Program-made: the position numbers and the translations under genes
The notes under the pieces: generated by a model
Databases searched by the model: none
The model's input: only the letters and a program-made list of their open reading frames with translations
Told to the model about the DNA's origin: nothing
From: Oscillospiraceae bacterium
GTDB taxonomy: Bacteria > Bacillota > Clostridia > Oscillospirales > Ruminococcaceae
Assembly: GCA_009778065.1 (NCBI GenBank)
Contig: WRKM01000015.1
Location: 1-64,000, forward strand
Reading direction: 5' to 3'
Length of the DNA: 64,000 nucleotides
Shown: positions 211 to 58,416 of the stretch, in pieces
Layout: every line of letters begins with the position of its first letter
Numbering within the stretch: the stretch's first letter is position 1

Positions 211-1644
211 TCAGCTATACAAACCGTGAGTCGGTTGATTGAGTTTTTTGAGTAACACTCGCTTCAGCTCATCATAATCGACTTTTGCGCCGTGCCTCTT
301 ATCCATGGGAAGTTTCTTAATGCAGATAACTTTCGATATCTGCTGAGATTCTAATGCACTTAAAACATCTTTTGGGTTTATATTACTTTTTTCGATTACA
401 ACGATTCGTTCATTATTTTGAGATATAACAGCGCCCCGAATCCCAAAGAGCGAATCTAAAATACACTCCGCGCAAAACGGTTCAAGTGTACCGTGTTCAT
501 CGTGAATTGCCTGACTTACACGCCCCAAAAGCCATAACCGCCCCTGCTCATCAATATGACCGGAATCGCCTGTTTTGTGCCAAATAACGCCGTTTTCATC
601 ATGGATTTTGTTCTCACTGTCGCCGATGCCGTTAAGATAACCTTTTAAGACTGTGTCGCCGCTGACCAAGATTTCATTATGAGTGCCGATTCTGCACTTT
701 ATTTGAGGCACTATATGACCGACAAGTAAACCCTTTCCGCTTGCAATTTTCTGTTTGTCTGTTTCACTGACATCTTTCCAGCGGATTCCCGAAATAGGCT
801 CTGCTTCGGTAGAGCCGTAAACTATGTGTAGGTCTACATCTTTTCGTATTTTACGGAGCATACCGGGATAAACAGGACCGCCGCCGAGATAGGCATTTTT
901 AAGACTCGGTAGTTCGCTGTGTTTGAGTAGATTTTCCATTAACGCAGGTGAGCAGATTGCACGAGTTATTCCTACGCTGTCTGCTTTTGCGGCAAGTTTT
1001 TTCGTGCCTATTTTAGATTTATAGCTTTTATAAGGTAAAAGCGTAGTCATATTAGCCGCCATGTTAGCGAGGGTGAAAACAGGTAAAGTTCCTAAATCAA
1101 TATGGTTCTCGTTAAAATCAATATGTTCGCAAAGTACATAATATTGATTGATTAGAAAGGCATGGGTTCTGACTGCAATCTTAGGCACTCCCGTCGTCCC
1201 GCTTGTAAAAGTTAGAATCGCAGGGTGTTCCGGTTTAACTTTTTCTATTATCGGTGTTTTAGTATTTTGACTGCTTTTCGATATATTTAGTGTTTTAATT
1301 TTACGCATCTCAGAGTAAGTATTCCGAATAAATCCCGTGATTTTATCGCAGACTATTACATCGGGTCGAAGCCGTTCAATACTGTCGCTCACGAATTTTG
1401 AACCGCGTGAATAGTCAATAAAAATCGCGGATGCGCCAACGCTCCACGCGCCAATCATAGCCGCATATAACTCAATTGAAAGCGGCACAAAAACGAGAAC
1501 ATTACTACCCGATTTAATGCCCTCGTGTCGTAACCTATTGCCAAACCGCAAGCCGCGATTTAGCAGCTCGGTATATGTGACAATTTTATCTCCTTGAATT
1601 AATGCGACTTTATCACTCGGTTTCAGCAGTTCAAGAATATTCAT
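211..1644 (-). CDS. AMP-dependent acyl/aryl-CoA ligase-like enzyme (OleC-like ANL family)
   Basis: This is an ANL-superfamily adenylating enzyme that activates a carboxylate with ATP. The P-loop FTSGTTGVPK is at residues 146-155, YGSTEAEP at 276-283, the hinge motif KTGDSG at 357-362, and the C-terminal RHGAKVDY at 450-457 carries the expected catalytic lysine (K454). That RH-x-AK-V form resembles the OleC/long-chain ligase branch more than classical acetyl-CoA synthetases. At 477 aa it is slightly short for the family. It is the last gene of a six-gene operon and overlaps the GNAT gene by 14 bp. It is read as activating an acyl or lipid carboxylate for the operon's product; the substrate cannot be told from sequence. 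Confidence 0.85.
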   Translation of the reverse strand: MNILELLKPSDKVALIQGDKIVTYTELLNRGLRFGNRLRHEGIKSGSNVLVFVPLSIELYAAMIGAWSVGASAIFIDYSRGSKFVSDSIERLRPDVIVCDKITGFIRNTYSEMRKIKTLNISKSSQNTKTPIIEKVKPEHPAILTFTSGTTGVPKIAVRTHAFLINQYYVLCEHIDFNENHIDLGTLPVFTLANMAANMTTLLPYKSYKSKIGTKKLAAKADSVGITRAICSPALMENLLKHSELPSLKNAYLGGGPVYPGMLRKIRKDVDLHIVYGSTEAEPISGIRWKDVSETDKQKIASGKGLLVGHIVPQIKCRIGTHNEILVSGDTVLKGYLNGIGDSENKIHDENGVIWHKTGDSGHIDEQGRLWLLGRVSQAIHDEHGTLEPFCAECILDSLFGIRGAVISQNNERIVVIEKSNINPKDVLSALESQQISKVICIKKLPMDKRHGAKVDYDELKRVLLKKLNQPTHGLYS

Positions 1645-2389
1645 ACAGCGTATACTCCCTTATTTTAACCGCACCATATCGCGCAACCATATCTTCTGAC
1701 ACATTACCCTCGGATATTAACGCTCCTATTGCAGTTTTGAAGCCTTTGTTTTGTGCATTTACTATGACTTTATTCATCAGTGTTTTTCCTATTCCGAATT
1801 TACGGTATTCGGGTAAAACCGCGATAGTTTTGAGTATAAACAAATCGCCGAATCCAAGCGAAAACATAAATCCGCAGGGCGTATTGTTCTTATAGGCAAT
1901 TATTACTAAATCGCCGTCAACCATAGGTAACACGGGGTTGTAAAGCTTACAAAAATCTTCATAGTTTATATGCTCATATAAAAAATTATTAACAAAGCCC
2001 GTAACCGATATATCGTAAATCGTCTTTAAATCGGAGGGTTCAAATGTTTTATAAATTATGTCATTATTACAGGGAATCTCTTCAATATCTCCAAGAGGGA
2101 AGGCGACAGAGCAATATTTTTCGAGAGGTTTAAACCCTATGTCTGTATAAACCTCATTATACCAAAGAGGATTATGAGGTTCAAGCGGAAATGCCGGACT
2201 TCCGTCAGTTCGGCTCATAAGCCGATACTGATGCCATGTGTCGCCATTTATCGGGGCTATAATTCGATTATGCCCCGCGTTTTTTAACTGCCTGACATAT
2301 TCAAGCAGTTGCTTTCTCCCCGATTCCTTGTCTTTCATTTCAAAGCAACCGATGTAACCCTTATCAGAATAAACCATTATACTCTCCAA
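1631..2389 (-). CDS. GNAT-family N-acetyltransferase
   Basis: A 252-aa protein whose C-terminal half is a GNAT fold. The acyl-CoA binding loop is at about residues 191-203 (VLPEYRKFGIGKTLM region), preceded by beta strands containing GFMFSLGFGDLF. The N-terminal 100 residues form a second, degenerate GNAT-like half (CFEMKDKE, then the GFKPLEKYCS strand), so the protein may be a tandem-GNAT with one active site. It overlaps both neighbours (26 bp upstream, 14 bp downstream), which implies translational coupling. M5 at 2377 is an alternative start. A likely role is N-acylation of an amino group on the operon's lipid intermediate, an inference from the BtaA-like neighbour, which would generate such an amine. 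Confidence 0.75.
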   Translation of the reverse strand: MESIMVYSDKGYIGCFEMKDKESGRKQLLEYVRQLKNAGHNRIIAPINGDTWHQYRLMSRTDGSPAFPLEPHNPLWYNEVYTDIGFKPLEKYCSVAFPLGDIEEIPCNNDIIYKTFEPSDLKTIYDISVTGFVNNFLYEHINYEDFCKLYNPVLPMVDGDLVIIAYKNNTPCGFMFSLGFGDLFILKTIAVLPEYRKFGIGKTLMNKVIVNAQNKGFKTAIGALISEGNVSEDMVARYGAVKIREYTLYEYS

Positions 2390-3710
2390 TCAATAATAAT
2401 ATTATAGTGAAAACCAACACCAAACCGCCGACCAAAATTTTATTTGCATTAAATGTCGCATCGCCTACTTTTTTATAGTCGTATTTTCTGTTTAAAGATA
2501 CGGCAAAGGGCATCGGAATTGCTGTAAATGCCAAATAAAGAACATATATATACCAACGGGAAAGCGGGACGACCGAAATCATCAAAGACGGTAACGCTAT
2601 GAATCCTATGGCTTTAACCAACCCCCATACAATTGAAGAAGCTGTACTGCGGTTTCTGAAATTAAGAAAACGACTGTAGGTATTTATGCCGAGTAGAATT
2701 GCAAACGACAGCGAATACGATATGTACAGCATATTCCTGTATTCGGGGAAAAACCCTGTCAACACAAGACAAATTATTCCGACTATGCTGTTACTTTCTA
2801 TGACCTTGTAGGTTTGAATCATACTTTTTTCTTCGGCGTTCATCATAGGGAAAATACCGAATGTCAAAAACAATAACAGCGGCGGTATAACCCATGAAAT
2901 GCCCCCAAGCATTAAAACTATATACCCCACAAGCAGACTGTAAGCCATTGAAAGTCTTGATATGTTTGTTATTTTTCGTACCATGTAAACGACAGCCAAA
3001 AAGAAAAGCATGATACTCAGATTGGCGAATATTAAGGAAAGTGTCTGCTCGACATTATAACATAAAACACTGTATGTTAAAAGAGGGAGCAATAAATTAT
3101 CATTACCATGCCTTGTGACCGCTTCAATCATTGCGGCAAGTATTCCGATTAAACCGCTGATTACCAATACTTCTGCGCGTCCTACCTCTGTCATGAGCTG
3201 AAGCGGTATTAAAGTGCAAGCAAACGCCACAATGAAAAACATTACACTGCCTTCGCCGCTTTTTTTAGCCTCTTCTTCGTGCTGTGCCATGTTATACCTG
3301 CCATAGCCAACGCCGATTAATGCCGCTACACTATCCGCAAAAGTTAAAACTGCGACAGGAATTAAATATTCATATGTTTCATTATGTAACAAGAATAACA
3401 TCACAATTGAAATAACAAAGTATACATCTCCGAGCGATTTACGCCCCACACTGAGTAGCGCGGTTCCCACACCATTTCGCAAAAACACGTTTCTACGCAT
3501 AAATAATAACAAAGATACAGCAATAATTCCCAAAAATACAACAGTCTGTTTATGTTGAAATATATAAGGGAAGCAAAGAGCGGTACATCCCATCACTATG
3601 TGGATGGTTTTTCGTGAACCTTCGGGTCCTAATCGTCGGGCGCATAGTTTAGCCACGACCATGACTGCCCCTAAAACAATTAAAACACTCACTGCCGCTA
3701 AAATATCCAT
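2364..3710 (-). CDS. Phytol/dolichol kinase-like CTP-dependent membrane kinase with extra C-terminal membrane domain
   Basis: A 448-aa polytopic membrane protein. The N-terminal half has the signatures of the CTP-dependent polyprenol kinase group (phytol kinase, dolichol kinase, CdsA-related): RKTIHI at 33-38, SVGRKSLGD at 87-95 and LTFADSVAALIG at 122-133. Residues from about 225 on are a second block of roughly six transmembrane segments with NTYSRFLNFRNR near its centre, not normally part of single-domain phytol kinases. It is encoded 4 bp after the BtaA-like gene. The expected reaction is phosphorylation of a prenyl alcohol or related lipid alcohol in the membrane. Whether the second half is a second kinase (as in the plant VTE5/VTE6 pair) is speculation. 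Confidence 0.7.
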   Translation of the reverse strand: MDILAAVSVLIVLGAVMVVAKLCARRLGPEGSRKTIHIVMGCTALCFPYIFQHKQTVVFLGIIAVSLLLFMRRNVFLRNGVGTALLSVGRKSLGDVYFVISIVMLFLLHNETYEYLIPVAVLTFADSVAALIGVGYGRYNMAQHEEEAKKSGEGSVMFFIVAFACTLIPLQLMTEVGRAEVLVISGLIGILAAMIEAVTRHGNDNLLLPLLTYSVLCYNVEQTLSLIFANLSIMLFFLAVVYMVRKITNISRLSMAYSLLVGYIVLMLGGISWVIPPLLLFLTFGIFPMMNAEEKSMIQTYKVIESNSIVGIICLVLTGFFPEYRNMLYISYSLSFAILLGINTYSRFLNFRNRSTASSIVWGLVKAIGFIALPSLMISVVPLSRWYIYVLYLAFTAIPMPFAVSLNRKYDYKKVGDATFNANKILVGGLVLVFTIILLLIGEYNGLF

Positions 3711-3714
3711 ATCG

Positions 3715-4815
3715 TTATTTCACCTCATCAAGTTCAAACGCCGAGTAGAAAAAAGCTTTATCTTTCAGAAGCAACTCTCTGTTTTTGTCGTCATCGGTAG
3801 TGATACGCGGATTATTTGATTTACGTAAAGCGAGCATATTCCAATAAGCAAACCGTGTTCCTTTTTCTGATTTTGACAGCATATGAGTAAATAATTGTTC
3901 CATACTTTCCTGTGACATATACTCGAAAATATCACTTAGATTATAGCAATTAACAATGCCGTTATAGTTTTCCAAAAAACCCTCAATTGATTGTTTCTTG
4001 AATTCGATTTTTTCAAGATTGTTTCTGATTTTTTCGTAATTTTCCTCGCGCAGGGAATAAGGAAATACCGTGGTGTATTCGCCATTTAGAATATAAATCA
4101 TATACGGATTTTGGGCGGGTTCAAGCACAGAAAGAGCGTGTTTTGAACGGGAAAGAATCTTGTCGGCTACGCTACCCTCAACATATTTGAAGAACTCCTT
4201 GTCCCGCCCGAGTCTACCCATAACAAAGCGCGAAAAAAACACCCGAAACATCATTTTCCAACGGAAATTGTCCCACACTTTATCATAGAAAATTTTACGT
4301 TCTTCATAGCTTTTAGGTTCGAGCAGATTTGCAACCCTTTTTCTTGTATGAACGAGCGGTAACGCTTTTTTGCGGAATAATCCGAAGTATTTTTCAAACT
4401 TTCCCTGTGCCATAAAGCCTTTTTTAATAAGTTCTATGTTGTGGCTTTGTTCCCAGTATTCCCGAATTTCAGGTGACAAATTAAGCTTGTTGAAAACCGA
4501 TATTCTGTCTGCTGCTCCGCTTATTACGCCACCGAATAACAGATGTTCTTTATGTGAAAGTTCGCGATACATTGCCTTTCGTAGTTCACAGCAAGCAATT
4601 TGCGCGAAGCTTAAATCAACCGCATATACTTTTTTCGGATTTTGCGCGAGCAAAGCAAAAGCATTATCTCCTGCTGATGCTATTGAGAGAACAACGTCAT
4701 GCGGTTTAACATCAAGTGCTTCGATTAATAAATCGGCGTCTTCCCACACCTGAGAATAGCGGATTAAATCGAATTTAGCACGATTTTCAATTTCGCTTTT
4801 AATTTCACTTCTCAA
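3715..4815 (-). CDS. BtaA-like (DUF3419) SAM-dependent 3-amino-3-carboxypropyltransferase
   Basis: The 366-aa protein matches the DUF3419/BtaA group. The N-terminal signature RYSQVWEDADLL is at residues 19-30, the SAM-binding loop SIASAGDN at 44-51, the acidic ribose-binding position YAVDLS at 64-69, and the late motif LSDIFEYMSQE is near 293-303. BtaA moves the aminocarboxypropyl group of S-adenosylmethionine onto diacylglycerol to make diacylglyceryl-homoserine in betaine-lipid synthesis. No BtaB methyltransferase is present in this operon, so the product may remain a primary amine or be N-acylated by the nearby GNAT. It overlaps the upstream dikinase gene by 11 bp. The family assignment is confident; the acceptor lipid is unknown. 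Confidence 0.8.
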   Translation of the reverse strand: MRSEIKSEIENRAKFDLIRYSQVWEDADLLIEALDVKPHDVVLSIASAGDNAFALLAQNPKKVYAVDLSFAQIACCELRKAMYRELSHKEHLLFGGVISGAADRISVFNKLNLSPEIREYWEQSHNIELIKKGFMAQGKFEKYFGLFRKKALPLVHTRKRVANLLEPKSYEERKIFYDKVWDNFRWKMMFRVFFSRFVMGRLGRDKEFFKYVEGSVADKILSRSKHALSVLEPAQNPYMIYILNGEYTTVFPYSLREENYEKIRNNLEKIEFKKQSIEGFLENYNGIVNCYNLSDIFEYMSQESMEQLFTHMLSKSEKGTRFAYWNMLALRKSNNPRITTDDDKNRELLLKDKAFFYSAFELDEVK

Positions 4816-7111
4816 GTATAATCACCGTCCCTTTTTCACCATCCAATTCAAGTAAATCCCCTGTTTTTACATTAGCGAACAAGCCCTTAACCGAAACAAC
4901 GGCGGGGATTCCCATCTCGCGTACAACGATGGCGGCATGGGATAAAAGACTGCCGTATTCGACTAAAACGCCGCTTGCAACAGGGAACAGCATAATCCAA
5001 CCCGGGTCTGTACGCTGTGCGACTAAGATTTCACCGGGCAGAATCGTTGCGCCTTTAGGTTCGGAAATGACCCTTGCCCGACCTCGTACTATTCCGGGAC
5101 AACACCCCAATCCTTTTAGGTTGTCTCCTGTAACAACTGCTTCCGCCGTCTTGACGTGCCGTTTTGACAAATGCACACAGTCGTAGGTGTCAAATCTGTC
5201 GGGGGCATCTCCGCAGTAGTTTGAAAACTCTGCCTTTCTGACACTAATTAAGCCTTTTAAATCGGTAGTAGTTGAAGTCCCTTCGATAAAGCCGAATATT
5301 TCTTCAAGTTCTAAGTAGAATATATCATTTTGTTCTTCAATAACGCCGAAACTTGCGAATCTCATGCCGATTTCTTTCGCTAATTTGCGTACCTGCCCGA
5401 ACAATCTTGTGCGTTCAAAACGTAGGTTTTCTCTGTTCCTGATTGTTTTGCGGGTATTTTTCAACAGATAGCGGAACAACAGCCCCTTCGGAATAACAAC
5501 TGTCGTTTTCTTATGTTTAACAACATCGCCTTTACTTAACTTAATCGCAAAGCTGTCAACGGCGTTGTATAAAGTATCAGGATTGTCGTTTAATGTCTCA
5601 CTTTCAAGTTTTAACTCATCAATACACCTGTCGCCGAATTTATCTAAGTATTCTGCGATTTTTTCGGAAATATTTTCACCGCGGTTTTTCATTTCCGCCA
5701 TTTCGCGAACACGCTTTGCAGGCTCCGCGCTTATAATGTCGCCTGTGTCTGAGAGCAGGGCATTGAATTTATTCTCATCCTCACTACCGAACTTCTTACG
5801 CAGCATACCGTAGAATATCATTGAATAAAAATCATTAATTACGGGAGCATCCCAGTGTTTTAAAAGCTTACTTTCAATACTTCGATAATAACAAGCGAGT
5901 TCACCTAAAGTCATTTCGGACAAGTCTGTTTTAGTAATAGTTTCATCCAATAGATTAAAGAATCGCTTCACATTAGTGTCGTTTTTTCTGTAATGCCATA
6001 ATAACTTGACCGCAGTACCGATAAGCGTTCCGCTTGAAGGAGCGGGTAAAAGTTTACGGACTTCATCGGGTAAACCATCTTTGACGCCCATCATTTGTTC
6101 CATAAATTTAGCGTTAGACTTATACCCGGGTAAGATTGCAACTAACTTATACCAGGACAGCATATTATAATAAACCTGCCCGTCATGCAATCCGAGCATA
6201 TGCGAAAAGATGTAGTCATTCTCGCTTATTTTAGCCTCGCTTACGTTTAACGCCCTTGCCATTTCACGGTAAACATGTTCATAAGCAAGCCGAATCAGAC
6301 TGAAAGTCAGCGGCGTAGTCACCCCGTTGTAACTTTCGGCAATGTTAGAATTATCCCATATGTTTATAAAGCTGTTAATATCCGTAAACTTTCGTAAAGA
6401 CGTTATCGGTCGTGATTGAAGCAAATACAACACGCCGTTTTCATACGCCCATTCAATGTCCTGCACCCGCTTAAAAAATCGGCTTGTTTTCTTGCATAAC
6501 AGGGCGATTTCCCTGCATTGTTCGTCCGTGAGAACCCCAAGACCCTCTACAGTATTGCCGCAAACAGTATATGTATCTGCATCGACAGAGCCGTCTACTA
6601 ATTTATCACCTAATCCGCTGACCGCGCTTATGATACATTCTTTTGTATTACCTGTTACGGGGTTTGCTCCGAAAGCCACTCCCGCACAGTCCGCATTAAC
6701 CATTCGCTGAACTAATACGGCAGGTGCAGAAATACCGTCAATTCCGCGTTCTTGTTTATATAATTTAACACGCTCGGAATTAACCGATTCTTGTACTTTT
6801 AAGATATTTTCATAGACTTTTTCTTTCGTAATGTTCAAATAACTTTCAAATAATCCCGCAAAAGAATTGTCCGCGCCGTCCTCGTCTGTCGCCGAAGAAC
6901 GCACAGCAAACAACGTGTCATCGGAGAAACCGGAAAGAGCAGTTTCAACCTCAGACACGCATGTACCGTCAGTCCCTATTGCGAACCAATCGGGGATATT
7001 CTCTGTTATATCCGACAGCTTCGCCAGCGCCCCCGCTTTACCGCCTATTTTACTTATGTCGTAGTTGTGCTTAGTATAAATCATAGCTAATAAGTACCTA
7101 TCCAATCTCAC
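4805..7111 (-). CDS. RPH-like ATP-dependent dikinase (PEP-synthase/PPDK N-terminal and phosphohistidine domains)
   Basis: A 768-aa protein with a PPDK/PEP-synthase type ATP-grasp domain (GGKAG at 23-27, AVRSSATDED at 69-78, QDIEWAYENG and LLQSRPI near 230) and a C-terminal swivelling phosphohistidine domain (GSLLSHAAIV with the phosphorylatable H725). The C-terminal PEP-binding barrel of PEP synthase is absent, so the layout is that of rifampicin phosphotransferase: ATP to AMP plus Pi, with transfer of the beta-phosphate to a substrate held by the roughly 400-residue middle region. The start is uncertain: a GTG at 7111 overlaps the prenyltransferase stop by 4 bp, while an ATG at 7084 has AGG upstream. 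In this operon it probably phosphorylates a lipid intermediate rather than an antibiotic (inference). Confidence 0.8.
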   Translation of the reverse strand: MRLDRYLLAMIYTKHNYDISKIGGKAGALAKLSDITENIPDWFAIGTDGTCVSEVETALSGFSDDTLFAVRSSATDEDGADNSFAGLFESYLNITKEKVYENILKVQESVNSERVKLYKQERGIDGISAPAVLVQRMVNADCAGVAFGANPVTGNTKECIISAVSGLGDKLVDGSVDADTYTVCGNTVEGLGVLTDEQCREIALLCKKTSRFFKRVQDIEWAYENGVLYLLQSRPITSLRKFTDINSFINIWDNSNIAESYNGVTTPLTFSLIRLAYEHVYREMARALNVSEAKISENDYIFSHMLGLHDGQVYYNMLSWYKLVAILPGYKSNAKFMEQMMGVKDGLPDEVRKLLPAPSSGTLIGTAVKLLWHYRKNDTNVKRFFNLLDETITKTDLSEMTLGELACYYRSIESKLLKHWDAPVINDFYSMIFYGMLRKKFGSEDENKFNALLSDTGDIISAEPAKRVREMAEMKNRGENISEKIAEYLDKFGDRCIDELKLESETLNDNPDTLYNAVDSFAIKLSKGDVVKHKKTTVVIPKGLLFRYLLKNTRKTIRNRENLRFERTRLFGQVRKLAKEIGMRFASFGVIEEQNDIFYLELEEIFGFIEGTSTTTDLKGLISVRKAEFSNYCGDAPDRFDTYDCVHLSKRHVKTAEAVVTGDNLKGLGCCPGIVRGRARVISEPKGATILPGEILVAQRTDPGWIMLFPVASGVLVEYGSLLSHAAIVVREMGIPAVVSVKGLFANVKTGDLLELDGEKGTVIILEK

Positions 7112-8013
7112 TTAAAAAAAGGCAAAACGCCGAGCATCGTGTGCATAAGAATCATCCATATACCCGGCAGGATTTTAAATGCTTTTGCGTTTTTCGGGGT
7201 GGGTTTTTTAGCGAATTTTACAGCAGAAGAGAGTGCAATAATATAATGCAATAAAAGTACAACCATTATTTCAAAACCGACATTTACTTGAAACCCCGCA
7301 ACAACCGTACTTGTACCTGAAATAGTCATGCAAATCATCCAAACGACCATTGCTTTTTTAGCACCCCAAATATGTGTGTAGGTGTCAACGCCGTATTCTT
7401 CATTTTCGGGAGCGCGGAGCTTACGCCCGACTTCTACCACCGTTCCGTCACAAAAACTTGAAATCATATACAGTACAATCCCAAACGAGAATACGCCGCC
7501 GCTCGGTAACCATTCCACGGCAGTCGCGTAAAGGTCGATGAACGGCATAATAAGCATATGACTGATTAAATAAATCGTCGGGTGAGCTTTCAACCACTTA
7601 GGAATACCGAATTCCAACGACATAAAAGCCAGCCAAACAAAACCGAGTAACAAAAGCCATAACAACCGCAAATCAACCCAAATGCTTAACGCGACCATCA
7701 ACAATACTAACACCGCTCCGAAAATACGAAGCTCTTTCAGCGTGATTAGTCCGCGCTGAACAGGACGGTAAGGGCGAAACTGCATATCCTCTTCAAAATC
7801 CTTATGCTCGTCCGCAATACGCAACAGCATAAACCAAAACAACGTAACAACTATTGCCGTAATCATTTGCGGTATACTGATGTCAGAGAGGGCTGCATCG
7901 GCATTACGCAGGTGCAGTGAGTAACTGAGCGAGCTGAATCCGAAAGTCGCCATAAGCGGTATGTAACCGGCAAGGGGAAATCTCTCCTTTTGATAAACCC
8001 ACCATTTATTCAT
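7108..8013 (-). CDS. UbiA-family membrane prenyltransferase
   Basis: A 301-aa membrane protein with about eight hydrophobic segments and a UbiA-type metal/diphosphate motif RIADEHKDFEED at residues 65-76, followed by RPYRPVQRGLI at 80-90. A second acidic region, DGTVVEVGRKLR to EEYGVDTY, spans about 189-212. UbiA enzymes transfer a prenyl group from a prenyl diphosphate onto an acceptor within the membrane. This is the first gene of the operon. AAGGACAG precedes the ATG and a clear promoter lies 30-60 bp upstream. Together with the polyprenol-kinase-like protein downstream it suggests local recycling or production of a phosphorylated prenyl donor. Donor and acceptor are not determinable. Confidence 0.82.
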   Translation of the reverse strand: MNKWWVYQKERFPLAGYIPLMATFGFSSLSYSLHLRNADAALSDISIPQMITAIVVTLFWFMLLRIADEHKDFEEDMQFRPYRPVQRGLITLKELRIFGAVLVLLMVALSIWVDLRLLWLLLLGFVWLAFMSLEFGIPKWLKAHPTIYLISHMLIMPFIDLYATAVEWLPSGGVFSFGIVLYMISSFCDGTVVEVGRKLRAPENEEYGVDTYTHIWGAKKAMVVWMICMTISGTSTVVAGFQVNVGFEIMVVLLLHYIIALSSAVKFAKKPTPKNAKAFKILPGIWMILMHTMLGVLPFFK

Positions 8014-10301: not shown

Positions 10302-10374
10302 TGGAGCATAGGGGACTCGAACCCCTGACCCCCACACTGCCAGTGTGGTGCGCTCCCAACTGCGCTAATGCCCC
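10302..10374 (-). tRNA. tRNA-Ala (anticodon GGC)
   Basis: A 73-nt cloverleaf on the minus strand. The acceptor stem GGGGCAT/ATGCTCC contains the G3:U70 pair that identifies alanine tRNA. The anticodon stem CCACA/TGTGG holds loop CTGGCAG with anticodon GGC, and the T-arm loop is TTCGAGT. The discriminator base is A, and the CCA end is not encoded (A is followed by GCA). Confidence 0.95.
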
Positions 10375-15084: not shown

Positions 15085-18000
15085 ATGATGAAAAAACGTA
15101 ATATAAAGTTATTATCGCTTATTACAACGGCTTTTGTAACGGCGCAGTTATTAATTTTTAACTCCGTTATCATCTCCGGCGCGAATACTGTACAGGAATT
15201 AGCCGACTACATTAATGCTCGTCCGGGTCTGACTGCAACTGTTTCAGGCTCGCAGGTAGTTGTAGATGGAACACAGACAGGCTCTTCCTCTTTATCGCTG
15301 AATATTGACGGGGGGGTTGACGTTATATGGAATGCAACCCTGGCAGGAGCCGTAACAACAAACAATTATCTGTTAACGCTTTCGGGAAGCGGTAAATTTG
15401 TTTTAAACGGCTCGCTGATTAATTCAGGCTCGGGTGGAACAGTTTATATAACGGATGGTATTAATTTTAATGTGAACGCAACAGGGCTTGCAGATAATCC
15501 CGGCGCAGGTTCTGCCATCACCATTGCGGCAGGTGTTCAAAACGCCCGAATAGACATACTCGGCGGAACGGTCAGGTCTGTTCCCAACGGGTACGCGATA
15601 AACGACGGCGCGGGAATGAGCGCGAGTAATAATAATACCGAGATTAATATTCACGACGGTTTAGTAGAAGCGGGTTCTGCCTGCGCTATTCGCTCGACAG
15701 GTATAGGTTCAGTCGTTTCAATAATGGGCGGAACAGTAGTAAATGCCGCGGCGAGTAATACAAATTCTACCATATATATGAATTACGCTCCCGCACCAAA
15801 TAATAACCTATATAATATTTGCGTATACGGCGGGACAGTAAAAACAACTAACCCCGGAAACCAAAGCTATGTCATCCAGACTTCGCAGAATGTATATGTA
15901 AACGGCGGTTCTGTTGAATCCTTAGCGGGACGGGCTATTAATCTCGTAGGTATGTATTCTGTCGCGCAAATTCAAGACGGCAAAGTCTCAACTGAAACGG
16001 GAACCGCGATAAGCACCGCTACCACCACCCTCGACGATATTGTAAACGCCCGTGTAATTATAAGCGGAGGAATAGTAGAGGCGACGGGAAAAGATGCAAA
16101 CTATTCGGGTACAGCCGTGCGTATCACGGGTACTAACAATACTGTTAATATTTCTGATTCGGCGGTCGTTACCGCTAAAAGCGGATTGGCTGTTGATGCC
16201 TCGGGACGTCCGCAAACTAATTCCGTCACAATAAGCGGCGGTTTCGTGCTTGCATGGGGAAATGCAATAAATAAAGTTGTGTCGCCTATAGGCAAGCTCG
16301 AACGCAAAGATGAAGGTGTTGTGGTTGCGTGGGACACATCAGACGGAAAAGGGATTTACCTCCGAACGTCCGAAACCGACCTCATAACAGACGCCGATGT
16401 AATAACTGCGTTTTGGGACAATGAACCGACATACGCCGAAAATGGCGGTATAAGATACGGTTCGGAATTTTTCAAGCTTGCACCCGATGTCAGCGTATTT
16501 CAAAGCCTATATACTCTGACAGTAATTAACAGTACAAAAGGGGACTATGTAGTAGAACCGTTTGCCGCCGGAACACCGCTAACCATTACGGCGAAGGACG
16601 AAGAAGAGCCGCAATACGCTGTCTTTCCCTATCCTCCTATTGATGGCAACAGGTTTGTCGGTTGGAGTGCGGTCGGCGTAACGCTTGCAGACCCTTCTTT
16701 AAAAACCGTTTCGTTCTCTATGCCTTCGGGTGATGTTACCATTATTGCAGAATTTAAACCGCGTTACAGGTTTGACATATACGGAGGGGTAATTGCAGAC
16801 GACCCATTAGTTCCGTCTTCTTTCGCTTATTATTCAGAAGGGGATATAATTAATATCAGTTGCACCAATCCATATCCGCCTTCACCTATATGGAATTTCG
16901 GCAGTCATCTATCTGCCATCGACAATGATAATAATTCAGAAACGACATTTACAATGCCCGCCGGAGTCGCATGGGCGGCGTCTATGTCGAGTACTCCAAG
17001 CATCATTGTCGAGGAAACGAAGAGCCTTACAGTAATTGACGGTATTATCACCACAACTGTCGGCGGTATAGCTGTAAATAGTAACACGCATGAATGTTAC
17101 AGCGGCACGGGTATGAGAATTTTAGCCGATGAGCCGCCTGCGGGATATGAGTTCAGCCACTGGGAAACTACGCCTGCGGGTATTGAAGGCGGAGCGTTAT
17201 TTGATGCTTTAAATCCGTCAACAATCTTTACTATGCCTACCCCGAATCAAGATGTAACTATTCAAGCTATTTTCGAGCATAAGACTTATGTTCTTGAAGT
17301 TGACTCATCGGGAAGCGGCGTCTACTCCGAATTCCCCAATCAGCAAAGCGGTGATAAAGTAGAAATTAACGCCGCTCCTCCCCCCGAAGGTATGCGGTTC
17401 AGCGGTTGGACAATAGACGGCGGAGGCGGTGAATTTGAAGACGTTTCGAGCATGACGACCGACTTCATTATGTCAGACAGCAATGCGGCAGTTTCTGCCC
17501 ATTACGAATGGGATTATTATATCCTTATAGTTGAAAACGGTGTTGACGGTTTAGGCGCGGGACGTTATCATTTTGGAGAAAGCATACCGATTATGGCAAA
17601 TGAACCACCCCTCGATATGACGTTTTTTAACTGGACAACAAACAGCGGCGGTTATTTCGGCAGACAAACAGATGCAGATACGGTATTTTCCATGCCGGCG
17701 GGTGATGTGACGGTTACGGCTAATTACTTAGACCCTATGTCCCCGGATTCAACCGACCCCTCATATCCTTACAATCCTTCTAACCCCTTCGGTACATATG
17801 ACCCGACCTCATCATCCCCTGTTAATACGCCTGAGTCGGGCGAATTTCCGATAGTTCCCGGCGGTGTTCCGGATTCTTCGGTAGCAATACCCGGCGAAGA
17901 GCAGTCACCTTCAATAACTCCGCGCGGTATTGATGAAAATTCCGGTGATGACGACGAACCCGACAGCATCCCGGAGGGAGAAGCGGATGGGAACAATGTA

Positions 18001-18090
18001 CGAACGGGTGTGATAATAGGTATAATTCCCTTATTATTGTCAGCAATAGTTTTTACGGCTTCGGGCGTAAGAAAATTAAACCGAAACTAA
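15085..18090 (+). CDS. Large cell-surface protein with repeat domains
   Basis: A 1001-aa exported protein. It has a signal peptide (MMKKRNIKLLSLITTAFVTA), then about 400 residues rich in G, N, T and S with repeated GGTV and ISGG turns (ILGGTVRS, IMGGTVVN, VNGGSVES, ISGGIVEA) that look like a right-handed beta-helix. At about 470-880 several copies follow of the 'bacterial repeat' type seen in surface proteins (GWSAVG..., HWETTPAG..., GWTIDGGGG..., with TFTMP-like closers). A P/S/D-rich linker leads to a C-terminal membrane anchor (TGVIIGIIPLLLSAIVF) and a short basic tail. No LPXTG motif is seen. The likely role is adhesion or surface display; the ligand is unknown. Confidence 0.85.
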   Translation: MMKKRNIKLLSLITTAFVTAQLLIFNSVIISGANTVQELADYINARPGLTATVSGSQVVVDGTQTGSSSLSLNIDGGVDVIWNATLAGAVTTNNYLLTLSGSGKFVLNGSLINSGSGGTVYITDGINFNVNATGLADNPGAGSAITIAAGVQNARIDILGGTVRSVPNGYAINDGAGMSASNNNTEINIHDGLVEAGSACAIRSTGIGSVVSIMGGTVVNAAASNTNSTIYMNYAPAPNNNLYNICVYGGTVKTTNPGNQSYVIQTSQNVYVNGGSVESLAGRAINLVGMYSVAQIQDGKVSTETGTAISTATTTLDDIVNARVIISGGIVEATGKDANYSGTAVRITGTNNTVNISDSAVVTAKSGLAVDASGRPQTNSVTISGGFVLAWGNAINKVVSPIGKLERKDEGVVVAWDTSDGKGIYLRTSETDLITDADVITAFWDNEPTYAENGGIRYGSEFFKLAPDVSVFQSLYTLTVINSTKGDYVVEPFAAGTPLTITAKDEEEPQYAVFPYPPIDGNRFVGWSAVGVTLADPSLKTVSFSMPSGDVTIIAEFKPRYRFDIYGGVIADDPLVPSSFAYYSEGDIINISCTNPYPPSPIWNFGSHLSAIDNDNNSETTFTMPAGVAWAASMSSTPSIIVEETKSLTVIDGIITTTVGGIAVNSNTHECYSGTGMRILADEPPAGYEFSHWETTPAGIEGGALFDALNPSTIFTMPTPNQDVTIQAIFEHKTYVLEVDSSGSGVYSEFPNQQSGDKVEINAAPPPEGMRFSGWTIDGGGGEFEDVSSMTTDFIMSDSNAAVSAHYEWDYYILIVENGVDGLGAGRYHFGESIPIMANEPPLDMTFFNWTTNSGGYFGRQTDADTVFSMPAGDVTVTANYLDPMSPDSTDPSYPYNPSNPFGTYDPTSSSPVNTPESGEFPIVPGGVPDSSVAIPGEEQSPSITPRGIDENSGDDDEPDSIPEGEADGNNVRTGVIIGIIPLLLSAIVFTASGVRKLNRN

Positions 18091-18114: not shown

Positions 18115-20100
18115 ATGAGGAGTATAGGTTTTAAACTAACCATTATAATGTTGAGCGTTATTCTGCTCGGCATATTGGCTACCACGGGAGTATCGATGCT
18201 CATATCAGGAAACGTCATAATGAGCGAGTCTTTGGAAAAAGTGTTAAAAGACACTGAAAATCAGACGGGCGGTATTGACAGTTGGCTGTCTTATCAAAAA
18301 TCAAGCATGGCCACCCTTGCCGCGACATTATCTCAAACCGATGATATGTCGCGTGAACAGATTGCGTTGATTTGCGAGGCTGTAATGGATGCGAACGAGC
18401 CGTTTTTTGACGTATTTTTAGGATACCCGGACGGAACAGCCACGACAGGGAGCGGATACGTATTTGATTATTCAACCTGGACATCATATGAGCGGGGTTG
18501 GTACAAGTTAGCTCTGACCGATATGTCAAAAGCGCATATAACCACGCCCTACATTGATGCACAGACAGGCGAGTTGTGTATTACTGCCGTTCACGCTGTA
18601 GTGAAAGACAGGGAGCTAATCGGCGTTATCGCCGCTGATATTTTCGTTTCAGACCTGCTCGAAATAATAATGAGCATTGATTTAGGCTCAAGCGGCTACG
18701 CGATGCTGTTAGATTCAAACGGGGATATTTTGGTTCACCCCGATTCGGATTACGCACCTGTAGGTGAAGACTACCGAAACATCGCTAAAGTAAAGGATAA
18801 TATCTACTCGGATTTATGGAATCAAATTTTACTTAAAGACGGTGCGGTTTCTTTTAAGGACTCAAACGACGTCGCAAAATATTATACCGCCTGTACATTA
18901 TCGGCGGTAGACTGGAAAATGGTCACAATACTTCCTAAGAGCGTTGTTACTAAGCCTATCACTAACCTCATTTTTCTCGTTATACCCATTACGCTTACTG
19001 TTTTAGCAGTATCTGCGCTTTTAGTAAGGATGTTTGTTAAGAATATTACAGGTCCTCTTATTCACTTGACCGCCTTTATGAAAAAAGCAAGCTCGACAGG
19101 CGATATATCGCTCACCGATGAGGACAAACAGATAGTGGGCAGGGCATCAAAAACTAAAGATGAGTTGGGGCAATGTATATCGGCGAGTGCGGATTTTGTA
19201 GCGCGGATTGCAGAGGTGAGCGATGTATTAAAGGTTACGGCGAACGGCGATTTAACCGCCAATATATCTCTCTTGTCCGAACGCGATGAAATGGGTAGCT
19301 CTTTGCAAACCATGCTTTCAAGTCTAAACAGCCTTTTCGGAAATATAAACGACTCTACGGAACAAGTTTCCACGGGTTCAAGACAGATAGCCGACAGCGC
19401 ACAGGCACTCGCCTCGGGTTCAACCGAACAAGCCGCATCAGTCGAGGAATTGACCGCCACTGTGTCCGATATATCTGAGAAAACAAAGCAAAACGCCGTT
19501 ATGGCGGGAAAAGCCTCCGAGCTTGCAAAAACTATAAAGCAAAAAGCCGAAAAAGGCAACAGCCAAATGAACGAAATGATGGCGGCTGTGAGTGAAATAA
19601 ATCAAGCAAGCCAGAGCATTAATAAAGTCATAAAGGTCATTGACGACATAGCGTTCCAAACAAACATACTCGCGCTTAACGCGGCGGTTGAAGCGGCGAG
19701 AGCCGGAGATGCGGGGAAAGGGTTCGCCGTTGTAGCGGAGGAGGTTCGTAACCTTGCGGGCAAAAGCGCGGAGGCGGCAAAAGACACGGGCAGTCTTATC
19801 GTTAATTCAATCGAAAAGGCGGAGGTCGGTACCCGTATAGCACAAGAAACAGCTGCAAGCCTCGCTGAAATCGTTGATGGAATTAATGAAAGTTCAAAGG
19901 TCGTTGCACAAATAGCATCGTCATCCGAGGAACAATCCGTTGCCGTTTCACAAATTAATAACGGTCTGAATCAAGTCACCTTAGTTATCCAACAAAACAG
20001 CGCGACGGCAGAAGAAAGCGCGGCGGCTTCCGAGCATATGAGCAGTCAGTCTAACCTGTTGGAAGAGTTGGTACGCCGCTTTAAACTGAAGGGTAAGTGA
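18115..20100 (+). CDS. Methyl-accepting chemotaxis protein with Cache sensor
   Basis: A 661-aa chemoreceptor. TM1 at about residues 8-30, an extracytoplasmic double-Cache-type sensor at 35-275 ([37 protein letters not shown]), TM2 at about 284-308, HAMP, then a long cytoplasmic coiled coil. Its hairpin tip ([20 protein letters not shown], near residue 510) contacts CheA and CheW. Two Q/E-rich methylation stretches flank the tip. Such receptors bind small ligands outside and control flagellar switching. GGGGACAG precedes the ATG. The stop overlaps the next gene's start, so receptor and regulator are coupled. Confidence 0.93.
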
Positions 20101-21038
20101 AAGATAAGCCTATGAATAAAGAGCTTTACACAATAAAAGAATTTGCGGATTTAACGGGCGTAGAGGTGTCGAAATTACGTTTTTATGACAAAATCGGGCT
20201 TTTTTCTCCGTCAATCCGCAATCCGGAAAACAACTATCGCTACTATTCCCCCACACAGGTCATGACACTTAATTTCATTACTGTGTTGAGCGACCTTAAC
20301 CTACCGTTGAAAACGATAGCCGGATTGAGAGAAGAGCGAAGCCCCGTAGAGATTTTAAAACTACTCGCTAAACAGGAAAAGCAACTCTCCATTGAGATGC
20401 TCGCATTGCAAAAGAGACATGCAATAATAAGTGCGAGGCGTGAGCTTATAAATTACGGCGTAACAGTAGCAAACGGATTTAAAACCGTCAGGGGCAAAAG
20501 GGTGAGCGATGAAGACGCACCCGAAAACGCGGTAAAAGGCGGAGAGGATACAATTTCGGTTTTACAAAGAGAGGATAAAGAATACATCCTGTGGCCTCGT
20601 AATGAGTATAGCGAGAATGATACCTTTTTACAGCCGCTCTTATCATTTGTAAACCGTGCCAAGGATATTAATATAGACCTCGACTTTCCTGTCGGCGGAT
20701 ACTGGGGAAGTATGGAAAACTTTATGAGCGAGCCATCGCGACCCGAACACTTCTTTTCCATTGACCCGCATGGTACAAATGTGAGAAAAGAGGGTAATTA
20801 TTTAATAGGATTCACACGGGGATATTACGGGCAAATGGGCGACTTGCCGGAAAGAATGAGTGCGTATGTTAAAGAAAAAGATTTAACAGTGTCCGGTCCC
20901 GTGTGGGTGATGTACATGTTTGACGAGATATGCACAAAAAAGCCGGAACAATTTTTGGCGCAGGCTTGTGTAGCCGTTTCAAAATTCAAGCGCAGTGCAG
21001 GAACTGCTTCGGACAAAAAAAGACTGTCTCACTATTAA
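20097..21038 (+). CDS. MerR-family transcriptional regulator with C-terminal effector-like domain
   Basis: A 313-aa regulator. The MerR winged helix is at residues 10-80 ([20 protein letters not shown], then NNYRYYSP), followed by a dimerisation helix to about 125. The last 150 residues resemble a GyrI-like/multidrug-binding effector domain ([30 protein letters not shown]), so it is probably ligand-responsive. It starts at GTG 20097, overlapping the chemoreceptor stop by 4 bp, or at ATG 20112. Coupling a MerR regulator to a chemoreceptor is unusual. A terminator overlaps its stop codon. Confidence 0.85.
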
Positions 21039-21280: not shown

Positions 21281-22240
21281 TCACTCTTCCTCGTCTTTCT
21301 CAGCTTTTTTAAAAAACAGCAAAAGTCCTAATAAAGATGCACTCACCGCCATTATGATAAGCCAGGTTATAGATTCCGCACTGTTTATGTAGTCGGTCTT
21401 CGGAGAGGTGTCCGCTTCTTCAAACGGCATCACATCTGTGGGCGGAGCCGCGTCTTCGGGCAAAGCCGCGTCTTCATGTAAAGAAGCATCTTCAAGCAGA
21501 GTCGCTTCTTCAAGCAGAGTCGTTTCTTCAAGCAAAGCCTCATCCTCAAGCGGAATTGCATTATATGGTGCGTCTATTGTGTCGGGCGGTGTTGTTATAA
21601 TCGTTGGCGGTGCTGTTGTTGTCGGCGGAAGAGTTATCGCCGGCGGTGTTGTTATTGCCGGGGGGGTTATTATCCCCGGCGGACGGGGTGTTTCCGGAGG
21701 GGTTGTCACTTCCGGAGGGGTTGTCACTTCCAGAGGGGTTGTTACTTCCGGAGGGGTTGTCACTTCCGGAGGGGTTGTCACTTCCGGTGGGGTTGTCACT
21801 TCCGGTGGGGTTGTCACTTCCGGTGGGTCGGTTGGGTTATCCCGCATGAAATTGGTAATAACGAATCCGTGTTCAGTACTCCCGCTCGTTATATTGACGA
21901 ATCCGTGAGGTGTTTCTACCTGCTCAACAGACCACTTGTAATTCGGGTCCATTTCTTTCCAGACATAGTACCACCCTCCGGTAGCATCCACAGATACTGC
22001 TCCGCCATATGGTGAGCCGTCTCTGTATAGTTGTACCTCAATACTGTCGGGATGCTTGTCCGCCGGTATACACTCGACATATACCAGTAGCTCAATATTA
22101 TCGGGAATGGGTTCTACTTGGATAAAACGATTTTGCGGTCCTTGTTCGGTATATGCCGCACTCGGCGTCATCAAAGCAACAAACATTAACCATATTATTA
22201 TACCGCTCACCCGTAAAACCTTTCTTTTAGTGCCTGTCAT
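21281..22240 (-). CDS. Cna B-type surface protein with PEVTTP repeats
   Basis: A 319-aa exported protein: a signal/anchor segment (VSGIIIWLMFVALMTPSAA), then a Cna_B-like domain at about residues 50-130 (SIEVQLYRDGSPYGGAVSV, then GWYYVWKEMDPNYKWSVEQ), then a stalk of six-residue PEVTTP repeats (about 137-200), then an acidic E/D/L/A-rich region (LLEEATLLEDAS), a C-terminal transmembrane helix (ITWLIIMAVSASLLGLLLFF) and a charged tail. The layout is that of an MSCRAMM-like surface stalk, but the LPXTG sorting motif is missing, so anchoring would be by the helix. GGAGGTGA precedes the start. Confidence 0.85.
   Translation of the reverse strand: MTGTKRKVLRVSGIIIWLMFVALMTPSAAYTEQGPQNRFIQVEPIPDNIELLVYVECIPADKHPDSIEVQLYRDGSPYGGAVSVDATGGWYYVWKEMDPNYKWSVEQVETPHGFVNITSGSTEHGFVITNFMRDNPTDPPEVTTPPEVTTPPEVTTPPEVTTPPEVTTPLEVTTPPEVTTPPETPRPPGIITPPAITTPPAITLPPTTTAPPTIITTPPDTIDAPYNAIPLEDEALLEETTLLEEATLLEDASLHEDAALPEDAAPPTDVMPFEEADTSPKTDYINSAESITWLIIMAVSASLLGLLLFFKKAEKDEEE
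21694..21832 (-). repeat. 18-bp tandem repeats encoding PEVTTP
   Basis: Seven units of an 18-bp motif (CCGGAGGGGTTGTCACTT and close variants) plus a partial one. Because the period is a multiple of three, copy-number change would keep the reading frame and alter the stalk length of the surface protein. Confidence 0.9.
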
Positions 22241-44613: not shown

Positions 44614-47600
44614 TTATTCCTTCACCTGTAATAATTCTAAAATCTTACGCTTAGTCACCGACACCGATGCTACCAGCCCCGCACAAACACAGCCGAGCAG
44701 ATATAACACCGCACACAGGGCGAGCGTCTCTGCGCTTTGCGTGAATAGGCTGTAATTATATACCAAAAGTCCTCCCGCCGCAAGTATAATTCCGATGATA
44801 CAAAGTGCGACCTGCTCGAACGTAAGCATACAGCGTACCCGCTTTTTTGTAGTACCGAGAACCCGTAAAATCGCGGCTTCTTTTGAGGATTGCAGGATTA
44901 ACAGGCTCGGCGCGGTTACGCCAATAAGTACTGCCGCCGTTACTGCTACGGGGAAGAGGAGGGTGAGCAGGTCTCGCACCCGCCCGATGTTATCGAGTTC
45001 GGTCGTATCAACTTTAAAAGAAGCCGCCGAGGAATACTGCGTACTGCTAAACCGCAATTCTTCAAGATAGTCATTAAGCTCGCGGATTTTTTCATTGTCA
45101 GCGATGATGAACTCGCTGTGTGTTACAGGGAAAGGCTCAAGGTTTATTTTTTCGGCGGTTTTTCCGAGCGGCGCGAAAATTCCTGTGTTTATACGTCCTG
45201 TTTCGGATTCAATTATACCTGCGACTGTGTAAGTAACGCTTTCGCGCATTATAATTTCTATAAGCTCTTCAATACCGAAATCATAACGACCCTGCTCAAA
45301 GTCGTTAAAATATCTTTCGACCCGTTGAAAGCCCATTATTTTAATGCTGTCTCCGGCACCTAAACCGAGTATTTCGGCTGTATCGCTTCCGAGCAGACAA
45401 ATAGCGGCGTCTTCATTCAAAAGCGATAAATCGGAAAAACCGTCGGCGTAGTTTACAGAAAATTCAGCATGTGGGAAACTGCGTTCCAAATCGTTGGTGA
45501 AGGTTAAACTGCTCTGGTTTTCGCTCGCGTTGAGGGACGCGCTGAAATTAGAGCGATAGTATAAATCCTCCGTCAGCTCCGCTTCCGATAATTCTACGAC
45601 AGCACTTGAGGAGAAGTTAGACACCGTATATTTGACGTCTACCTCCTTGAAAAGCTCTTGATAGGACAATCTCGTAAGTGTTAGAAAACCAATTGCGCCC
45701 GTCAGTACGGCGGCTAATGCCAGCGAGAGCGCGGTTTTCCATTTAACCCGCCTCATGTGCCTGAATATGTAGCTTGAAACGTGACGTAAAGCGGAATACC
45801 GACGAGCCGTCGGCGGCAGTATAGCTTTCGACAGAGGTGAAAAATATGCAGATGTCGAAACAGCGGCTTTTTCGGTTTTGTGTACGGCGATGTTCGCGAC
45901 CTTAACCACGTCGCCCTGCAACAATTCCAAAACAGGCGTTTTCCCCATTTTACGCAGGAACAGCGCGGTTATAAGCATGATAAACGCTATTTCACAAACA
46001 AGGCACAAAACCAACGCGGCGACAGGCAAAGAGGTATTCACGAAGCCGATTTCCGATAACGCTTCAAGATTTTCCTCAACAGTAAGCGAAGCATAGTAAA
46101 TCCCGAAAACACCGCCCACAGGAATTGCCAAAAGCGCGAGCAGACCCAAAGGAAGCGAAAGCGCCCTGCCCGCCTTTCTTTTCGGCGTGCCTAACGCCCG
46201 CATAATTGCGTAGGCTTTTTTGTTGCGTCCTATGTACAGATACGCCGACAGCAAAAGCGCGCCGCAAGCCGCCAAAACAAAGAAAACAGCGTTTAAGAGC
46301 GAAGCGGTTCGACTCGTGGTTATGTTGCCCTTTACCTTATCCCAGCCGCGGTCTGAAAAGCGCAGGGTTATTCCCATTTCCTCCGCCAACGGCTCGGCTT
46401 GTTCCAAAAAAGCGTCTATATCCAACGCGTTTTCAATGAAAACGCTGAACTCCCCGGGCTTTATTGCATGGTCGGCGGGTACTTCGACAGGCAATAACGA
46501 CAAAGGTACGAAAACCGTGCAAGGGTGGTAGCCCCAGTACATGGCTGCATCGCGCTGGTAGGCGGCATCAACGTCCTCATACGCGCCGACTATTTCAAGT
46601 TCGACAGTTTCAACGACATTCCATTGCCGCTCGGGCAGGTATGTAATCGCGCCGTCCCCTGAGTGTTGCTCAAAAAATCTGTCTCCAAGCCCGATTGTCA
46701 GCTTGTCGCCGACGCTAAGGTTGTTTCTGTCAAGAAAAAGCTTGCTCACAACACATACCTCGGCGTTTGTATTATGGTCTTCAAGGTTCAGCAGTCTACC
46801 TTCGGAAATTTCCATGGTCTTCTCATTAAAGCGAGGAATAGCACGCATATCTGAAGTGTAAACAATATCAAAAGTATTCATGTCCTTGTTGATAATATCG
46901 ATTATTTCCCGCAGGTACGCGAATTCTTCTGTTTCTAAGTAGTTTTCGGGTAACTCATCTAAAGCGAACAAGGAAGCCCCGAATACGGAATTATTCGCGT
47001 TACCGAGCCAGTTCCAACTCGGATAATCGATGGCGTATCTTCCGAAAAAAATGTATCTTTCTCCCTCTTTTAAAATATCCCGATTATCAACGTCAACTCC
47101 GGCGGCTTCCGCCCCCGGGTTATTCCAACCCAAGGAAACACCTCCTACTATGTCAGTGTCAAGCAATACAGCGGAACCGTTGCTTGAAATGGGATAGTCT
47201 CCTGCAATAAGCACACAACTTTCAAAAGTCATGTGATGCACATCAGGAGCATTATGTTCCGGTTTAGTTTCATTTCCTACGTATGTGCCTTCCATTATAT
47301 ATATTCCGGTGTAGTCATATCCGTATATTTCACGTCCATCTTCAAATTCGTATTTATTGTTAAAATCAGAAAATTCGTAAATGTTGTAAAAACGCCTGTA
47401 ACCCTCTATTACACCGCCCGTCATATATCGTGTGTCAGTCATCGTAACTCCCGGCAGGGAGGAAAAGGCTTCAATCAGTTCGCGTTCAAGTTCCGGCGGC
47501 GGTTTAACGCCCCAGAGGTATTCAATCGTATCGCGTAATAACAGATAGTTCAACTTGACTTCCGCATAGGCGGTAAATGGCGTTCCGTTATCTAATGCCG

Positions 47601-47778: not shown

Positions 47779-47799
47779 AAAAATCACCTCTTGTTTATA

Positions 47800-47845
47800 T
47801 CAATTGTACATTGTCAATTGTCAATTGTCAATTGTCAATTGTCCG
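47800..47845. repeat. (ATTGTCA)n heptamer repeat between permease copies 1 and 2
   Basis: CAATTGTACATTGTCAATTG followed by further ATTGTCA units, up to the stop codon of copy 2. Each CAATTG is itself palindromic. The same block separates the other permease genes. Confidence 0.85.
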
Positions 47846-51343: not shown

Positions 51344-51364
51344 AAAAATCACCTCTTGTTTATA

Positions 51365-51403
51365 TCAATTGTACATTGTCAATTGTCAATTGTCAATTGT
51401 CCG
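51365..51403. repeat. (ATTGTCA)n heptamer repeat between permease copies 2 and 3
   Basis: The same CAATTGTACATTGTCAATTG start followed by ATTGTCA units, ending at the stop codon of copy 3. It is one heptamer shorter than the block at 47800. Confidence 0.85.
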
Positions 51404-54667: not shown

Positions 54668-54690
54668 AAAAATCACCTCTTTTAGCAGTT

Positions 54691-54803
54691 CCGCTTGACA
54701 TTGAAATAAATTCAATGTCAGCGGTCGTCGCCGATGGCGGCGGACAGCGATTCTCGCTGTCATAGCAATTGTACATTGTCAATTGTACATTGTCAATTGT
54801 CCG
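54691..54803. repeat. Structured spacer plus heptamer repeat between permease copies 3 and 4
   Basis: CCGC-T-TGACATTGAA (54691-54705) pairs with TTCAATGTCA-GCGG (54711-54724) with one bulged T. A CGCC/GGCG stem and GACAGCGA/TCGCTGTC (near 54743-54761) follow. Then comes a shortened ATTGTCA block (54766-54803). This spacer is about twice as long as those between the other copies, as if a small palindromic element had inserted. Confidence 0.65.
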
Positions 54804-58316: not shown

Positions 58317-58347
58317 AAAAATTACCTCTTTTGTATTTCTTGCCAAA

Positions 58348-58416
58348 ATTATAACATAAAAATTTATATTTGTCAACAACAAATATTATTGACAAATAAA
58401 TATTTTTACTTATAAT
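58348..58416. promoter_or_regulatory. Divergent promoters with a 10-bp inverted repeat between permease array and padR-type gene
   Basis: Minus strand: TTGACA (58371-58376), 17 bp, TATAAT (58348-58353) for the permeases. Plus strand: TTGACA (58389-58394), 16 bp, TATAAT (58411-58416) for the PadR gene. TATTTGTCAA (58367-58376) and TTGACAAATA (58389-58398) are perfect inverted repeats 12 bp apart that contain both -35 boxes. A dimeric repressor here would control both directions. Confidence 0.8.

Follow-up and report, generated by a model that had tools for sequence, protein, structure and literature searches.

A conserved six-gene bacterial operon as a candidate pathway for an isoprenoid lipid bearing an aminocarboxypropyl group

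In the betaine-lipid genes of a Rhizobium leguminosarum plasmid, BtaA, a DUF3419 protein, is followed immediately by an S-adenosylmethionine (SAM) methyltransferase, BtaB. Archaeal digeranylgeranylglyceryl phosphate (DGGGP) synthase belongs to the UbiA prenyltransferases, the tocopherol route pairs the kinases VTE5 and VTE6 with VTE2, and rifampin phosphotransferase (RPH) and prodigiosin ligase PigC/RedH combine PPDK_N and phosphohistidine domains and lack a phosphoenolpyruvate (PEP)-binding domain. Proteins that resemble each of these to differing degrees are encoded side by side in a six-gene operon at positions 211-8013 of the minus strand of the stretch analyzed here (the window), which takes up the first 64 of the 73 kb of contig WRKM01000015.1, from the 2.55-Mb genome of an Oscillospiraceae bacterium. 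Like the betaine-lipid genes, the operon encodes a DUF3419 protein with a conserved SAM-binding half, but it has no methyltransferase gene and instead adds five other enzymes; a preliminary description of this DNA had remarked on BtaA without BtaB, and this is correct for the operon, BtaB not having been sought genome-wide. We give an even chance to the reading that the operon would be a self-contained, horizontally moving pathway for an isoprenoid-chain lipid carrying the SAM-derived 3-amino-3-carboxypropyl group.

The listing of open reading frames (ORFs) in the window contains six co-directional, close-packed frames at this location, and the gene calls of the preliminary description stand. 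From the upstream end, all on the minus strand, they encode a 301-residue UbiA-family membrane prenyltransferase (7108-8013; PF01040), a 768-residue RPH/PigC-like dikinase with ATP-grasp and phosphohistidine domains (4805-7111; PPDK_N and PEP-utilizers), a 366-residue DUF3419/BtaA-like putative aminocarboxypropyl transferase (3715-4815; PF11899), a 448-residue polytopic protein whose N-terminal half is phytol/dolichol-kinase-like, to judge from motif conservation and from weak matches of related proteins (2364-3710), a 252-residue GNAT acyltransferase (1631-2389; PF13508) and a 477-residue AMP-forming acyl ligase (211-1644; PF00501), the final gene ahead of the contig end. Four of the five junctions overlap as listed (by 4, 11, 26 and 14 nucleotides), in agreement with the earlier remark that most of the genes overlap, and the fifth, between the DUF3419 and kinase-like genes, is a 4-nucleotide gap; an alternative dikinase start at a downstream in-frame ATG would abolish the first overlap, that with the UbiA gene. 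The single promoter formerly assigned to the genes received no backing from a scan, in which promoter-like sites numbered 24, while shuffled sequence gave 24.7 +/- 4.9. The contig end lies at the window start and an additional gene downstream of the AMP ligase is possible; in two related loci (L006 and L007) the co-directional gene run ends with the AMP ligase.

Linkage of the six genes is conserved. Relatives were collected by a profile scan of genome contigs with a three-sequence BtaA-like alignment, the best 80 of at least 361 being taken, and families were called in each locus by profile searches over all stop-to-stop frames of at least 50 codons. All six families are present in 60 of the 80 loci, a proportion that describes the subfamily of the window's BtaA, by likeness to which the loci were chosen, and not DUF3419 at large; seven loci hold five families and 13 hold fewer, several on short contigs. 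Every complete locus is co-directional (60/60) and 51 span 10 kb or less. When record titles were sorted by phylum, with Rhodothermales placed in Bacteroidota, the 80 loci fell into 17 phyla and the complete loci into 11, namely Bacillota (16), Verrucomicrobiota (10), Pseudomonadota (9), Bacteroidota (7), Acidobacteriota (5), Planctomycetota (4), Desulfobacterota (3), Deinococcota and Chloroflexota (2 each), and Eremiobacterota and Latescibacterota (1 each), many carriers being metagenome-assembled genomes whose completeness is not established. A comparison of neighborhoods, which the preliminary description had named as a check on its proposal, therefore finds the six families together well beyond the window. 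The order UbiA-dikinase-BtaA-kinase-GNAT-ligase, in some loci preceded by a gene for 3-hydroxy-3-methylglutaryl-CoA (HMG-CoA) reductase (HMGR), is seen in 33 of the 60; a Clostridia-type order, BtaA-kinase-GNAT-ligase-UbiA-dikinase, accounts for 13, an order starting with GNAT-ligase for 11, and other orders for three. The GNAT gene adjoins the AMP ligase gene in 59 of the 60, and in the exception the kinase-like gene intervenes.

The six genes are also co-inherited. The BtaA-like gene is found in just one of 197 genomes of the window's order, the window's own, is absent from the five same-genus and eight same-family genomes searched, and occurs in three of 398 genomes of the phylum, the window's included. 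Trees were built for each of the six genes from 63 sets, and in all six the window forms one clade with two loci that are Bacteroidales by title (L004 and L005) and two that are Firmicutes by title (L006 and L007), with support of 0.993 to 1.0, and the concordance of the six trees indicates that the operon moves whole. In Roseinatronobacter sp. S2 (L084) the six genes are plasmid-borne, with an HMGR end upstream. Some loci depart from the common plan. A verrucomicrobial variant (L014:4634-9917; L070 is similar by ORF sizes) has neither an HMGR nor a kinase-like gene, and its dikinase and BtaA-like gene are separated by genes for a class III aminotransferase protein that also shows a weak KR-type match, for an additional dikinase and for a SnoaL-like protein. 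Beside the permuted Clostridia-type cassette of L035 are an additional AMP ligase that includes a carrier-protein domain (18377-20972), with similar ligases in L024 and L028, and an Asp/Glu racemase-like gene.

Residue conservation was read from sets from which length outliers had been removed (AMP ligase 59 of 63, dikinase 70 of 71, GNAT 60 of 63, kinase-like 57 of 64, BtaA-like 73 of 74 and UbiA 61 of 65) and from alignments A2, A3, A4 and A5, which took in 47 of 50, 49 of 52 plus L002, 27 of 29 and 34 of 39 of the listed references, respectively. The BtaA-like protein matches DUF3419 (PF11899) in Pfam at 210.4 bits against a cut-off of 28.2, is 21.6-23.4% identical to the rhizobial copies by tblastn, and its predicted structure has no Foldseek match at E 0.001 or better. 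The SAM-binding half is common to the window's family and two rhizobial BtaA proteins (E8, F15, Y20, Q22, W24, E25, D26, I45, S47, G49, N51 and D67). Over the whole protein, the rhizobial pair agrees with 33 of the 90 positions conserved in the cluster, and the segment N292-M300 (NLSDIFEYM) differs. The neighborhoods of other DUF3419 genes (L085 and the rhizobial L086) are different; the L085 gene (5911-6993), on a Deefgea piscis plasmid, lies between an iron-containing redox enzyme and speD.

The UbiA protein matches PF01040 at 46.3 bits (cut-off 34.2), and its nearest relatives in the PDB are DGGGP synthase and chlorophyll synthase, the nearest solved protein being the Methanocaldococcus jannaschii DGGGP synthase 6m31 (E 4.1e-7). 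It shares with these and other UbiA prenyltransferases the fold family and the first Asp-rich motif (D68-E-x-K-D72-xxx-D76, invariant in 34 aligned sequences), but differs from them at the second DxxD, where basic residues stand, and in being encoded in a bacterial operon. In the dikinase, Pfam finds PF01326 and PF00391 and no PEP-binding domain, which is the layout of RPH and PigC/RedH; His725 and the flanking SHxAIVxRE are kept in at least 93% of 70 sequences, and the nearest solved chains are 5fbs and 5hv1. It nevertheless falls under every equivalog cut-off for those enzymes (RPH, 249.9 bits against 999; PigC, 248.1 against 1300; RedH, 254.2 against 1350), and its neighborhood is of a lipid type.

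The 448-residue protein itself matches nothing in Pfam or NCBIfam, and Foldseek gave no hit to its predicted structure at E 0.001 or better; it may be kinase-like, judging by motifs that are conserved and by weak matches among its relatives. Residues R33, K34, H37, D126, K150, E153, G154, E196, D204, N205 and P209 are invariant in 47 sequences, all of them within the N-terminal half, and members of this set weakly match CTP_transf_1 (3/47, best E 6.3e-4), DUF92 (10/47, best 0.0036) or DUF2339 (5/47, best 1.4e-5). The adjoining of a prenol-kinase-like protein with CTP_transf_1- and DUF92-like relatives and a UbiA protein recalls the tocopherol route, but aromatic acceptor genes do not recur in the cassette, which adds the BtaA-like enzyme, dikinase, GNAT and AMP ligase. 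The GNAT matches PF13508 at 34.8 bits (cut-off 27) and the AMP ligase matches PF00501 at 138.9 bits, with the TSGTTGxPK region, D360, R375 and K454 kept in at least 93% of 59 sequences. Its best NCBIfam model is PRK09274, of the fatty acid CoA ligase family (252.8 bits, cut-off 478), and two OleC models score 130.7 and 110.1 bits, below their cut-offs of 900 and 850; the earlier designation as an OleC-like AMP ligase is thus right as to AMP ligase and loose as to OleC.

HMG-CoA reductase is the human enzyme that is blocked by statins. A class I HMGR, matching PF00368 at 374.9 bits, joins the operon in 38 of the 60 complete loci and lies directly ahead of the UbiA gene in 36 of them. Like ordinary class I HMGRs, the cluster enzyme retains the fold family and the catalytic residues, with E122, K253, D327 and H418 invariant in 27 aligned sequences and Arg590 and Lys692 retained as well, but its substrate site is changed and no mevalonate pathway surrounds it. 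In ordinary HMGRs, according to two published accounts, Ser684 and Lys735 touch the HMG moiety and Lys735 forms a salt bridge with its carboxylate (PMC9500038; PMC3875450). Alignment of the cluster copies to solved class I HMGRs places Glu at the Ser684 position in 44 of 44 readable copies and shows Lys735 lost in 42 of 42, the total being 47 matches, of which L002, L003 and L084 are unreadable at Ser684 and L032 and L050 additionally so at Lys735. The Ser684 position is Asp in HMGR-kinase fusions of two distant genomes, L093 and L094, and a class II HMGR (L092, from the genome of L081) aligns poorly as a control at this loop. The acidic residue at the former carboxylate site suggests that the cluster HMGR binds a cationic or neutral acyl group. 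The fusion is a 950-residue frame (L093:7973-10822, minus strand; L094:6174-9023, plus strand) of HMGR and an ecdysteroid-kinase/APH-like domain, and it abuts the BtaA-like gene.

In the 31 genomes of HMGR-bearing loci that were searched for HMGR and mevalonate enzymes (L068, from the cultured Desulfobulbus rhabdoformis DSM 8777, was left out), the cluster HMGR is the sole HMGR in every case. Mevalonate diphosphate decarboxylase scored above cut-off in none of the 31, with three weak matches of 19-21 bits, and HMG-CoA synthase did so in one (39.3 bits), whereas DXR, of the methylerythritol phosphate (MEP) pathway, is present in 30. With no decarboxylase and DXR nearly throughout, the cluster HMGR is in all likelihood not a source of isoprenoid precursors, and, since it stands alone beside the MEP route, an annotation that assigns it to mevalonate metabolism would be misleading. 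HMGR is absent from the window's genome and from 17 of the 18 other genomes searched that have an HMGR-free locus, and therefore the core product would not depend on it. The window's host encodes DXR, IspH, UppS and a polyprenyl synthase, and therefore makes isoprenoids. Among 11 Firmicutes carriers (G621 and G623-G632), 10 gave no DXR match; the idea that such hosts take up prenols was dropped, since IspH is found in seven of the 10 and UppS or another prenyl synthase in nine. Three small Firmicutes genomes (G625, G627 and G629, with loci L023, L028 and L035) gave neither a DXR nor an IspH match, and their assemblies are perhaps incomplete.

For the substrates, reaction order and product, we infer the following scheme. 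The phytol/dolichol-kinase-like protein and the RPH-like dikinase would activate a lipid alcohol and an acceptor by phosphorylation, the UbiA protein would couple a prenyl chain to the acceptor, and the BtaA-like enzyme would attach the aminocarboxypropyl group of SAM; the AMP ligase would activate a carboxylic acid and the GNAT acylate an amine. Where an HMGR paralogue is present, it would reduce a CoA thioester, probably not HMG-CoA. Isoprenoids are indicated by the lineages involved: a UbiA protein akin to DGGGP and chlorophyll synthases, a kinase-like protein with weak CTP_transf_1 and DUF92 matches among its relatives, and HMGR. A more speculative elaboration, which we regard as doubtful, is that the AMP ligase activates the carboxylate of the aminocarboxypropyl group itself, which the HMGR of most carriers would go on to reduce to an amino alcohol, the acidic residue being ready for the alpha-ammonium, so that the product would constitute a new class of lipid found in many phyla. 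The preliminary description had likewise arranged the six enzymes in one pathway, and the SAM half of the BtaA-like enzyme and the family of the UbiA protein fit its chemistry; the second UbiA motif and the rest of the BtaA-like enzyme do not, and the HMGR of most relatives was unforeseen.

Several observations weigh against an isoprenoid aminocarboxypropyl lipid. In the UbiA protein the second DxxD is replaced by E194-xx-R197-K198-x-R200, and with basic residues there the donor is perhaps something other than a prenyl diphosphate. Outside the SAM region, on the putative acceptor side, the BtaA-like enzyme is not conserved relative to rhizobial BtaA, a divergence that makes even the transferred group provisional. 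The kinase assignment has no confident family or structure match for the window protein behind it, and five of 47 relatives fit DUF2339 better. In L016 and L019, on long contigs, just UbiA and dikinase lie near the BtaA-like gene, and in L093 and L094 its only companions are the HMGR-kinase fusion and, in L093, an AMP ligase. MMPL-type exporters occur in three loci only, and a dedicated exporter was rejected as a core component on that account.

That the product is a specialized metabolite (a signal, an antibiotic or a prenylated small molecule) and not a bulk membrane lipid, with the dikinase activating a carbonyl for condensation as in PigC/RedH, is possible, though well short of probable. 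The dikinase does score 248 bits with the PigC model and 254 with the RedH model, both below cut-off, and the cassette is patchy (one of 197 genomes in the order), plasmid-borne in Roseinatronobacter and moves between phyla like accessory metabolite genes; yet six core families are held together across 11 phyla, additional tailoring genes are common to few loci, and the presence of two membrane enzymes speaks for a product of the lipid phase. A fatty rather than isoprenoid chain, for which the UbiA, kinase and HMGR paralogues would have been redirected to fatty alcohols or hydroxy acids, seems unlikely to us: the AMP ligase is nearest to fatty acid CoA ligases and more weakly to OleC, the HMG carboxylate site and the second UbiA motif are lost, but the nearest known relatives of the UbiA protein use prenyl donors and no fatty-acid-specific gene recurs in the loci. 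Improbable, in our judgment, is a betaine-lipid variant in which the BtaA-like enzyme forms diacylglycerol-homoserine and the GNAT N-acylates it in place of N-methylation by BtaB, as it leaves the UbiA protein, dikinase and HMGR without a role and just 33 of 90 cluster-conserved positions match the two rhizobial BtaA proteins, despite the DUF3419 membership, the common SAM half and the presence of both GNAT and acyl-activating ligase in 60 of 60 complete loci. Finally, permuted gene order among groups and the absence of three of the genes from a few loci could be taken to mean that the genes are neighbors that share no pathway, but co-directionality in 60 of 60 complete loci, on which chance co-location was rejected, together with concordant gene trees, refutes this in the main, and we regard it as almost certainly wrong.

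A search of the open-access literature, with subscription papers and preprints outside its reach, found no description of this cluster, consistent with the earlier statement that the pathway is undescribed. Open-access titles that concern DUF3419 deal with algae, plant lipids and a smut fungus, and the neighborhoods described in PMC12419801 are other ones. As the cluster conforms neither to BtaA-BtaB, nor to OleC, nor to the RPH/PigC/RedH equivalogs, nor to the mevalonate pathway, we rate it as new as a pathway, measured against the open-access literature. Intact in 11 phyla, such a pathway would bring a lipid or metabolite class to bacterial chemistry, and it supplies a testable case of HMG-CoA reductase acting outside the mevalonate pathway.

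Elsewhere in the window, a tRNA gene lies at 10302-10374 (minus strand), ~2.3 kb upstream of the operon start; tRNA genes are frequent neighbors of acquired islands. A marker from the flanking chromosome, being a repeat-bearing surface-type protein, was unsuited to show whether congeners share that stretch; it matched four of 21 genomes, the host's own among them. Proteins with divergent InlB B-repeats and a Cna_B domain are encoded at 15085-18090 (plus strand) and 21281-22240 (minus strand), the former being patchily distributed among relatives, and four very long ORFs of 1057, 1168, 1119 and 1192 residues follow in succession at 44614-58382 (minus strand).

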